Below, piece after piece: positions 35,906 to 38,108 of a stretch of DNA of 42,427 nucleotides. Every line of letters starts with the position of its first letter. Position 1 is the stretch's first letter. A program made the position numbers and the translations under genes. The notes beneath the pieces were generated by a model, which did no database searches, was not told the origin of the DNA, and worked only from the letters and a program-made list of their open reading frames with translations. The stretch is from a virus. The stretch is from IMG/VR virus record IMGVR_UViG_3300012936_000040, positions 1-42,427 of that record; one strand, given 5' to 3'.

Positions 35906-36459
35906 ACGGAAAGGTTTGCTATTTTACATTTGGTAGGTTTCAACCACCTACCACTGGTCATGCTGAGAATTTTGATGGTGTTAAACGTGCTGCAGGATCA
36001 AATGACTATTTGATTTATATTTCTCAGAGTGAAGACAAGAAAGGTAGCAACCCTCTTCCTCCCGCGTTGAAACTTTCCTACATGAACAAGATGTTTCCTC
36101 AACATCGTGGTAAAATAATCTCTGGTCCTAGAGATCCAGTAGCGATCTTGAAAGATTTGATGATGAGAGGATATGATGAAGTCCATTTTCTTGTGGGATC
36201 TGATAGAGTCAATGCTATGAAGTTCCTACATAGATACAATGGTACTGAATATTCTTTTCGTCAAATTTATATTGAATCTTCTGGTAGTAGAGACGCAGAC
36301 GGGGATACATTTGCTATTTCAGGCACCAAAATGAGACGCGCTGCACATGCTGGTGATTTTAAGGCATTTCGCCAAGGAATTCCTAAAGCACTATCAGACA
36401 AAGATACTAAAGAACTGATGAAAGAGATTGCTGATAGACTACCCGCTAATTTTAAATGA
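35896..36459 (+). CDS. Cytidylyltransferase / NMNAT-like nucleotidyltransferase
   Basis: A 187-residue HIGH-superfamily nucleotidyltransferase. FGRFQPPTTGH (12-22) is the (H/T)xGH active site. HFLVGSDR (96-103) and ISGTKMR (140-146) are the conserved following motifs. Relatives add a nucleotide to a phosphorylated small molecule (NMNAT, FAD synthetase, CTP transferases). Substrate choice cannot be read. It is sandwiched between the ligase-like and KOW-like genes with overlaps, indicating coupled expression. Confidence 0.8.
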   Translation: MALDGKVCYFTFGRFQPPTTGHAENFDGVKRAAGSNDYLIYISQSEDKKGSNPLPPALKLSYMNKMFPQHRGKIISGPRDPVAILKDLMMRGYDEVHFLVGSDRVNAMKFLHRYNGTEYSFRQIYIESSGSRDADGDTFAISGTKMRRAAHAGDFKAFRQGIPKALSDKDTKELMKEIADRLPANFK

Positions 36460-36737
36460 GAACTTTTAAAGATATAAAAGAACAAGCTGTAAGACAAAAC
36501 TTTCGTAAGGGTAACATCTATACGGAAGGGCAGGTTGTGATGAATGTGAACACTGGAGAGAAGGGTAAGATCATCCGTACTGGTCCCAACTACGTGATTT
36601 GTGTAACAGAAAGCAATGAGATGTTCCGCGCATGGGTTCGCGACATCAGGGAAGTAAACGAAGTTATAAATAAACCCAGGAGAACACTATTTTTTACTCA
36701 TGGACAAGCAAACACCATCAACATCAGTGCGTCATAA
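36456..36737 (+). CDS. KOW/SH3-like small protein (93 aa)
   Basis: A 93-residue protein beginning in an ATGA junction. The core EGQVVMNVNTGEKGKIIRTGPNYVICV followed by EMFRAWVRDIREV has the pattern of a small SH3/KOW barrel. It is a family often seen in cyanophages near virion-type genes. Residues after about 68 lie over the late promoter at 36665 and overlap the next gene, so the tail may be incidental. Function unknown. Confidence 0.72.
   Translation: MRTFKDIKEQAVRQNFRKGNIYTEGQVVMNVNTGEKGKIIRTGPNYVICVTESNEMFRAWVRDIREVNEVINKPRRTLFFTHGQANTINISAS
36665..36672 (+). promoter_or_regulatory. Late promoter, exact TATAAATA
   Basis: This is an exact T4 late promoter octamer 28 bases before ATG 36700. 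It lies inside the 3' end of the KOW-like gene. It starts the late-type island that runs to about 40671. Confidence 0.7.
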
Positions 36738-37842
36738 CGATGCTCTCTCAGAGGCTCTAATTAGTTCTTATACGAGATGGATGGATGGTGATACATTCCA
36801 ACATTCCACCGTAGAAGAAGAAGGAATCCCTGCTCTAAAGAAGAGAGAAGACCTAGACAACGGAACCAAGAAAGATCCAAAAGCAAACGCGGGTGCTCCT
36901 GATCCTGCTACGGAGTTGGTTGGTTCTATGACTATGGGTCAGGGTTCTGCTTCTCGTGGAGTGAAGCAATCCCATGGTGCTGAGATCCGAGATACTACAA
37001 AACTAGTAGCAAGGGAGGAAGCAGAAAATGTCGAAGAAGGAAAGAAAGGACTCTATGCCAACATCCACGCAAAGCGGAAGCGTGGAGAAGCACCTGCGAA
37101 GCCAGGATCCAAAGACTATCCAGCAAAGGATGCGTTTAAAAAGGCTGCAAGAACTGCTAAGGAAGAAGTATCGTTTGAACTCGATGGAGAAACTTATGTC
37201 TTTGAGAGAGAAGTCCTAGGTGAAGGAATGAAGCAGGCACGTAAGAATGTCGGTGCTTCTACTTGCTGGAAAGGATACAAAGCAAAGGGTACTAAGACTA
37301 AGGATGGTAAAGAAGTTCCTAACTGTGTAAAAGAACATAAATCGAAGAAAGTTGAGTGTCCTGAGTGTCATGGTAGGAAAGGCGGTTGCAATCACTGCGA
37401 CGGCAAAGGTTACCATATGGAAAGTATTGAAAACTTCTCAGAATATTTTGAGAAAGATCCTAAGTCTGGTAAGATGGTGAAGAAGCATAACTGTGCTAAG
37501 AAAGTTAAGTATAAGAAAGAAGAGTTTGATGTTGTCTCTGGTGAGCACACCATGCTAGAGGATGGAACTGTAACTCATTACGATATCATCAGAGAGAATC
37601 AGATTCATCACAACGTTCCTGTTGAGGAACTTGAGATTATGATCAGCGAAGTTCATGAACACGTTGTAAATGATGATAAGAACAAAGAAGTTCTTGGTGA
37701 GAAGAAACTTGATCCAGTAGGTAAAGAAGACAAGGACATCGATAACGACGGTGACCATGATAAGTCTGATAAGTATCTACTCTCTCGCCGTAAGAAAGTC
37801 GGTAAGATCATCGCTGCTAAGAACAGATCCGCAAAAAAGTAA
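36700..37842 (+). CDS. Modular late protein, zero-frame product (380 aa)
   Basis: A 380-residue basic, modular protein, probably virion-associated given its late promoter. Modules: GLYANIHAKRKRGEAPAKPG near 114; GMKQARKNVGASTCWKGYKA near 176; a DnaJ-type zinc-finger segment CPECHGRKGGCNHCDGKG near 220; and DKDIDNDGDHDKSD near 350, which looks like an EF-hand/dockerin-type calcium loop. Similar modules recur in cyanophage late proteins as I know them. The zero frame stops at 37842 directly after a slippery A-AAA-AAG, and the -1 frame continues for 89 codons. Confidence 0.75.
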   Translation: MDKQTPSTSVRHNDALSEALISSYTRWMDGDTFQHSTVEEEGIPALKKREDLDNGTKKDPKANAGAPDPATELVGSMTMGQGSASRGVKQSHGAEIRDTTKLVAREEAENVEEGKKGLYANIHAKRKRGEAPAKPGSKDYPAKDAFKKAARTAKEEVSFELDGETYVFEREVLGEGMKQARKNVGASTCWKGYKAKGTKTKDGKEVPNCVKEHKSKKVECPECHGRKGGCNHCDGKGYHMESIENFSEYFEKDPKSGKMVKKHNCAKKVKYKKEEFDVVSGEHTMLEDGTVTHYDIIRENQIHHNVPVEELEIMISEVHEHVVNDDKNKEVLGEKKLDPVGKEDKDIDNDGDHDKSDKYLLSRRKKVGKIIAAKNRSAKK

Positions 37843-37871
37843 CTGAGGCTTGCGATTGCGACGACAAGCCT
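37833..37871 (+). promoter_or_regulatory. Candidate programmed -1 ribosomal frameshift signal
   Basis: The heptamer A-AAA-AAG (37833-37839) is in the correct phase (gcA AAA AAG) at the last two sense codons before the zero-frame stop. After a 6-base spacer comes a perfect 7-bp stem, aggcttg (37846-37852) with caagcct (37865-37871), around a 12-base loop. This is the standard bacterial -1 frameshift architecture, as in dnaX and phage tail assembly genes. Confidence 0.6.
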
Positions 37872-38108
37872 AAGACTAAAAAATCGAAGTCTGTTGAGGT
37901 GATGCCTGTTATTGACGACGGCAAAGACCAGAAGAATCCTAAAAAGAAAAAGGATATCTACGTCAAGGAAGAGGCACCGAAGGGAAAAAAGTATGAGCGT
38001 ATGATCAAACATATTAAAAGATCATACGCTAAAGACGGTAAATTAACGAAGGATGAGAAGTCCATCGCATATGCTACCGCGTGGAAACATAAGAACAAGA
38101 ATAAATAA
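37839..38108 (+). CDS. -1 frame extension of the late protein (89 aa)
   Basis: Open frame that a -1 slip would append to the 380-residue protein, giving about 469 residues. It begins VTEACDCDDKPKTKKSKS and ends with APKGKKYERMIKHIKRSYAKDG and LTKDEKSIAYATAWKHKN. That ending is a module I associate with the C-termini of other cyanophage late proteins. Independent initiation looks weak: the first ATG is 37902, with gagg only 2 bases away. A missing A in the A6 tract (sequence error or mutation) would give the same picture. Confidence 0.6.
   Translation, partial: VTEACDCDDKPKTKKSKSVEVMPVIDDGKDQKNPKKKKDIYVKEEAPKGKKYERMIKHIKRSYAKDGKLTKDEKSIAYATAWKHKNKNK
38100..38107 (+). promoter_or_regulatory. 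Candidate late promoter before the small membrane protein
   Basis: AATAAATA overlaps the end of the frameshift extension and lies 25 bases before ATG 38133. It is the same octamer as before gp18 and gp22. Confidence 0.4.

Follow-up and report, generated by a model that had tools for sequence, protein, structure and literature searches.

A conserved dnaX-type signal for a probable −1 ribosomal frameshift in a modular late gene of T4-like cyanophages

Introduction

The stretch of DNA analysed here (the window) is virus record IMGVR_UViG_3300012936_000040, a 42-kb fragment (42,427 nucleotides) of a T4-like cyanophage, in which tail, head and replication genes follow one another in the usual order. 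One late gene, ORF A, ends at a stop codon that directly follows the sequence A_AAA_AAG, and a second open frame, ORF B, continues from this point in the −1 frame. This raises the question of how B is expressed: by ribosomes that slip at the end of A, by initiation at a start of its own, or as part of a single gene that a sequencing error has split in two. An original prediction, made from the window alone, favoured a programmed −1 frameshift and knew of none described for this family. Our literature search agrees with the latter point. No paper joining cyanophages and programmed frameshifting was found, and those retrieved for cyanophage and ribosomal frameshift concern other matters, judging by their titles. 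Cyanophages are unmentioned in the GeneTack survey (PMC3711429) and in the accessible part of a review of recoding (PMC5009743).

Results

The A/B junction in the window

The features of the locus are as follows.

36456-36737, + strand: g534 (93 aa), the upstream gene, which shares 38 nt with ORF A; its product starts MRTFKDIKEQA, resembling a T4 capsid-targeting sequence
36700-37842, + strand: ORF A, zero-frame product of 380 aa; final codons GCA AAA AAG TAA
37833-37839, + strand: putative shift site, slippery heptamer A_AAA_AAG, in phase with ORF A
37840-37842, + strand: zero-frame stop TAA, abutting the heptamer (TAA, TAG or TGA in relatives)
37840-37845, + strand: spacer of 6 nt between heptamer and stem
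37846-37852, + strand: 5′ arm of the putative stimulatory stem, aggcttg
37865-37871, + strand: 3′ arm of the stem, caagcct; 7-bp stem with a 12-nt loop at 37853-37864
37839-38108, + strand: ORF B, −1 frame extension of 89 codons (VTEACDCDD...KHKNKNK); stop TAA at 38106-38108
37893-37907, + strand: VEVMP motif of B; its VEV comes before the earliest ATG that could serve as a start and is conserved codon by codon, both in phages with the slip site and in those lacking it
37968-38105, + strand: C-terminal KYERMIKHIKRSYAKDGKLTKDEKSIAYATAWKHKNK module of B, predicted with low confidence to form two helices
38133-38333, + strand: next gene, 66 aa, T4-GC 424 family, used as synteny anchor

The in-phase heptamer, the adjoining stop, the perfect stem six bases further on and the two frame lengths are all as originally predicted. 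A −1 slip would fuse the frames into an A-B product of 380 + 89 = 469 aa, reading ...RSAKKVTEACDCDDKPK across the junction, with B beginning VTEAC. The 41 nt 3′ of the heptamer fold with a predicted energy of -12.3 kcal/mol (z = -4.4), which was equalled by none of 200 dinucleotide shuffles. The sequence AAAAAAG occurs 15 times on the + strand of the window, and only the copy at 37833-37839 stands at the end of a long ORF with a long −1 frame opening from it. No upstream SD-like stimulator is present in the window, and its clade would rely on one stem alone.

The original prediction also held that B has no well-placed SD or ATG of its own. This stands as regards placement, since the GAGG at 37896-37899 leaves a poor gap of only 2 nt to the ATG at 37902; it does not stand as regards presence, because that ATG and a GTG at 37899 do exist behind the GAGG. 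Both starts are internal, by about 60 nt, to a stretch with conserved coding character.

ORF A is a mosaic of cyanophage modules, namely KGLYANIHAKRKRGE, QARKNVGASTCWKGY, a CxxC zinc-knuckle-like element and LDPVGKEDKDIDNDGDHDKSD. The locus is flanked by a cytidylyltransferase (T4-GC 190), the 66-aa gene and the gp61 primase, and in some relatives (L053, L071, L268) g534 is fused to A. Pfam, NCBIfam and the PDB gave no useful match for A or B; matches in PHROGs were mostly to families of unknown function, and none was a tail chaperone.

Junctions in related phages

About 400 IMG/VR loci of related contigs were collected, plus isolate genomes. The anchor gene is found at other loci too, and loci found by the anchor alone were therefore filtered. 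The search for junctions was then made blind, with the VEVMP motif of B as its sole criterion and the heptamer ignored. Among 129 distinct junctions, 65 have A_AAA_AAG in phase with both frames open, and 61 lack the heptamer and have a B-frame ATG that overlaps the stop of A. The remaining three comprise two GTGA overlaps (L137, L151) and one heptamer with B open only after a gap. Translation thus appears to enter B through a slip in some phages and through an overlapping start in others. Two of the 65 (L149, L152) carry both devices at the same junction, a slip site and an ATGA overlap in AAA AAG CAA TGA.

Elsewhere in A the heptamer is used for only 3 of 259 Lys-Lys dicodons; at the junction it is found in 25/25 slip-class clusters, although this class is defined by the heptamer, so that the unbiased test is the blind tally and not the cluster count. 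The stop itself is variable. In 68 distinct slip junctions it follows the heptamer directly as TAA (31), TGA (16) or TAG (7), and in the other 14 it comes one codon later (AAG followed by CAR, AAY, TAT or TCT and the stop), with the heptamer kept. As both type and position of the stop vary, the conserved element is the heptamer and not the stop context, and its conservation goes beyond what the amino acid sequence requires.

Six of the isolate genomes fetched have the slip site, namely S-CAM1, S-CAM3, Syn1, Sf-CH11, Sf-FR1 and S-H9-2. In S-CAM3, S-CAM1, Syn1, Sf-CH11 and S-H9-2, the last codons of A are GAA AAA AAG with TGA or TAA as the stop, and B follows in the −1 frame. The ATGA overlap is found in S-H9-1, S-RSM4, S-WAM2, Sf-CH1b, ACG-2014h, ACG-2014e and S-CAM4. 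The records of the slip isolates annotate A and B as separate hypothetical proteins. The start of B is annotated inconsistently between isolates, being called from internal starts or left short; in S-CAM4 (L409, 1848-2093) the public start is an internal ATG, and the ATGA overlap lies 114 nt upstream.

The alignment of homologues suggested as a check shows that heptamer, spacer and a stem are kept while the frames remain apart, and no continuous A-B ORF was found in close relatives. Three loci (L110, L117, L123) were considered as single-ORF A-B fusions and rejected, since the copy of the module in their A is internal, and A_AAA_AAG and a −1 B are still found at the end of A.

Stimulatory elements

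The 60 nt 3′ of the heptamer were compared with synonymous recodings of B. In 25 slip clusters the mean z was -2.05, and in 11 ATG-class clusters -0.48 (Mann-Whitney p = 1.6e-4), where the slip clusters are phylogenetically non-independent (about six label changes, at least three of them forced, on the GC198 tree discussed below). Individually, 19 of the 25 slip clusters fall below -1.5 and six lie above it. The stem starts 3-9 nt after the heptamer, mostly 5-7, and its arms are wholly different between clades: AGGCTTG/CAAGCCT, GGGCTTGC/GCAAGTCT, AGGCATC/GATGCCT, GGAGTGTCC/GGACACTCC, GCCAGGAGGA/TCCTCCTGGT and TCCAGTT/AACTGGA.

An SD of at least 5 nt, located 6-14 nt upstream, is present in 11 of the 25 slip clusters, against 5.1 expected from synonymous recoding (p = 5e-4). 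None of the 11 ATG-class clusters has an upstream SD of even 4 nt or more.

Coding constraint on ORF B

For the part of B between the stop of A and the first start codon, pN/pS in four clades is 0.34, 0.32, 0.16 and 0.19, and the stretch varies in length by whole codons. In L115, B contains no ATG, GTG or TTG anywhere. The comparison thus shows that translation of B sets in at the junction, before any start codon is reached, and that it is under selection, as are the shift site and its stimulators.

The C-terminal module of B (KYERMIKHI...SIAYATAWKHKNK) is invariant and recurs in other modular proteins of these phages, which bears out the original recognition of a module shared with other cyanophage late proteins. 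The AlphaFold model of B shows two helices at low confidence (mean pLDDT 59.5). More widely, the modules KYERM...AYATAWK, CWKGY, a dockerin-like DxDNDGDxDxSD and NIHAKRKRGE are shuffled among many late proteins. Some other modular proteins of related contigs (L317, L366, L285) also have A_AAA_AAG with a stop at most one codon away and a −1 frame of 299, 225 and 85 codons, respectively; these are either further recoded genes or sequencing errors.

B has been lost altogether in a few close relatives (L205, L177, L178, L305). In L205 the Lys-Lys codons now read ACA AAG AAG TAT and the slipperiness is gone; L177, L178 and L305 have GTA AAA AAA TAC at the corresponding codons.

Discussion

A probable ribosomal frameshift and its alternatives

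We consider a programmed dnaX-type −1 ribosomal frameshift very probable at the A/B junction, with A and A-B as its products. A ribosome at A_AAA_AAG, with lysyl-tRNAs on AAA and AAG, would be held by the downstream stem-loop; in relatives an SD-like sequence 7-13 nt 5′ of the heptamer would hold it also, or instead. Both tRNAs would slip back by one base, on to AAA AAA. Ribosomes that do not slip would stop at TAA and release A (380 aa), and those that slip would read B and produce A-B (469 aa), which are the two products originally proposed and which the comparative data support. The phase of the heptamer and its terminal G fit tandem slippage of tRNA-Lys(UUU). In E. coli, which has only tRNA-Lys(UUU), A_AAA_AAG shifted much more readily than the other heptamers rich in A or U with which it was compared (PMC5009743). 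Synechococcus RCC307, a picocyanobacterium that need not be the host of this phage, likewise has only tRNA-Lys(UUU) among the 41 tRNA genes found. The ribosomal (not transcriptional) nature of the slippage, and its efficiency, are inferences.

The same proteins would result if the polymerase added an A within the A6 or A7 run, such that some mRNAs join A and B. Both mechanisms are known in dnaX and in IS elements (PMC3711429), and the run of A before the G is 6 long at 23 junctions and 7 at 45. Transcriptional slippage is however associated with runs longer than 7 (PMC3711429), and that length is never exceeded in the 68 distinct junctions, even though synonymous AAA would lengthen the run. 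The phase is always A_AAA_AAG, with the G kept, and the upstream SD and downstream stem are elements that act on the ribosome; a polymerase at the run has yet to transcribe the stem. Transcriptional slippage as the explanation is therefore unlikely. We rank ribosomal slippage well ahead, although a transcriptional share may exist. An indel, which was the main alternative raised originally and would make the true sequence A7 and the locus one continuous gene, is a natural worry in a metagenomic virus record, as homopolymers are error-prone. It can be ruled out for practical purposes, because the slip site, with the same A6/A7-G run and phase, is present in six cultured isolates sequenced independently by different groups and in dozens of contigs, and ATG-class phages keep the two frames apart by another route.

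It could also be that B is a separate gene, started in the window from GTG 37899 or ATG 37902, or in relatives by termination-reinitiation at a GTG overlapping TGA. The GAGG 5′ of these codons is in keeping with this, as is the start codon (GTG, TTG or ATG) that overlaps the stop in 28 of the 68 distinct slip junctions, and the ATG class uses exactly such an arrangement. The codons 5′ of 37899 are nevertheless conserved as B-frame coding, with length changes in whole codons, and this, together with the startless B of L115, rules out an own start as the sole route to B. The overlapping start is moreover gained and lost among close relatives (TGA in S-CAM1 and TAA in L169; TGA in S-CAM3 and TAA in L172) while the heptamer stays constant, and selection on heptamer and stem would be left unexplained. 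We regard a separate gene as very unlikely, and note that coupled reinitiation could add some free B at the 28 junctions with a start overlap. The loss of B in the four relatives described above might suggest that it serves no purpose now and is decaying after a gene fission. The purifying selection on B and its invariant C-terminal module speak against decay, as does L205, in which B is gone and the Lys-Lys codons are no longer slippery, and we give this explanation hardly any weight. Stop codon readthrough was also considered and is inapplicable, because B is in the −1 frame.

Comparison with known systems

The closest parallel to the proposed frameshift is dnaX of E. coli, which has A_AAA_AAG, an upstream SD-like stimulator, a downstream hairpin and tRNA-Lys(UUU) as sole lysine tRNA (PMC3711429; PMC5009743). 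In the reversed dnaX arrangement (for example in Chlorobium phaeobacteroides) the zero-frame stop lies directly behind the shift site, as it does here (same sources). The cyanophage case differs in that the protein is unrelated and encoded in a phage late operon, the shift would give the longer product, the combination of stimulators varies by lineage, and relatives use an ATGA overlap as the alternative. The tail assembly chaperones (lambda G-GT and HK97-like) are likewise phage late genes, in which a −1 shift close to where the first ORF ends gives two products from one start (PMC5009743); A, however, is unrelated to them and is not beside the tape measure gene, and the B extension is a recurring cyanophage module. 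Transposase frameshifts of the IS3/IS911 type share the A_AAA_AAG class of heptamer and a downstream structure (PMC4066793), whereas the cyanophage locus is not a mobile element and has no transposase.

Evolution of the junction and a possible role in the head

On the GC198 tree (106 rows, few columns), slip and ATG labels fall in large blocks, with about six changes, at least three of them forced; a few of the slip rows (L317, L366, L285) are other modular genes. With an ATGA overlap, B is necessarily in the −1 frame, an arrangement that would be easy to convert to a −1 frameshift. The dual-device junctions of L149 and L152 are possibly a transitional state.

The separately started B proteins suggest what the extension may be for. 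All 59 of the 59 ATG-class B proteins begin with a capsid-targeting (CTS)-like pattern, M-K-x-F/Y-x-x-F/L and then E. Among 161 starts of ORFs in the window and a further 49 kb from S-SM1, only 2 fit it, one of these being g534 of the window. Examples are MKTFKQLREE, MKSFKQFREE, MKTFQEFNEA, MKTFKQLREECGC and MKTFQEFNEACKD. In the T4 stretch the pattern picks out ipII, ipIII and one other ORF; ipI starts MKTFKEFTST, and ipII and ipIII both start MKTYQEFIAE. The first 10 residues of T4 IPIII suffice for head targeting, chiefly through positions 4 and 7 (PMC9026906). The ATG-class B peptides resemble those of IPI-IPIII in this pattern, and lack the isoleucine found at position 8 of IPII and IPIII. 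Slip-class B differs from the T4 proteins in having no such peptide, and the mature proteins are unrelated. In g534, 62 of 84 distinct N-termini fit a looser version of the pattern (background 5 of 161 starts). One g534 homologue starts MKDFKKLREEA, and other modular proteins start alike (MKSFFSFLREA, MKKFSAFLNEA).

The slip product of the window has no CTS-like start: B starts VTEAC and A starts MDKQTPSTSVRHND, and only g534 has one; an obvious targeting peptide on A is seen only where g534 is fused to it. The cytidylyltransferase next to the locus (T4-GC 190) has been detected experimentally in virions (PMC3037559). The CTS-like starts of B and g534, the g534-A fusions and the virion cytidylyltransferase together lead us to hypothesise that the phage head contains packaged A and B, and that the frameshift replaces the targeting peptide of B. 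Slip-class B, which has no peptide, would then enter the head as the covalent passenger of a fixed fraction of A. More speculatively, frameshifting and an N-terminal targeting peptide might be interchangeable routes to the head for B, between which lineages switch, with slipping delivering B as a passenger at a set dose; the same recoding may also recur in other modular proteins of these phages. We put this forward only tentatively.

Implications

We take the conserved dnaX-type −1 frameshift signal, in a gene family for which we found no published report of one, to be real, on the strength of the sequence comparisons. The find extends conserved recoding to phages that are among the most abundant in the sea, with the site kept in relatives that have diverged deeply. 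With B annotated from internal starts or cut short, a junction peptide would escape standard proteomic searches. The relatives provide a natural series (stem only; SD and stem; SD with a weak stem; ATGA overlap; B lost), an unusually clear one, through which the evolution of a frameshift cassette can be tested directly. Should A and B indeed be packaged in the head, the virion would contain a co-packaged pair of proteins in a fixed ratio.
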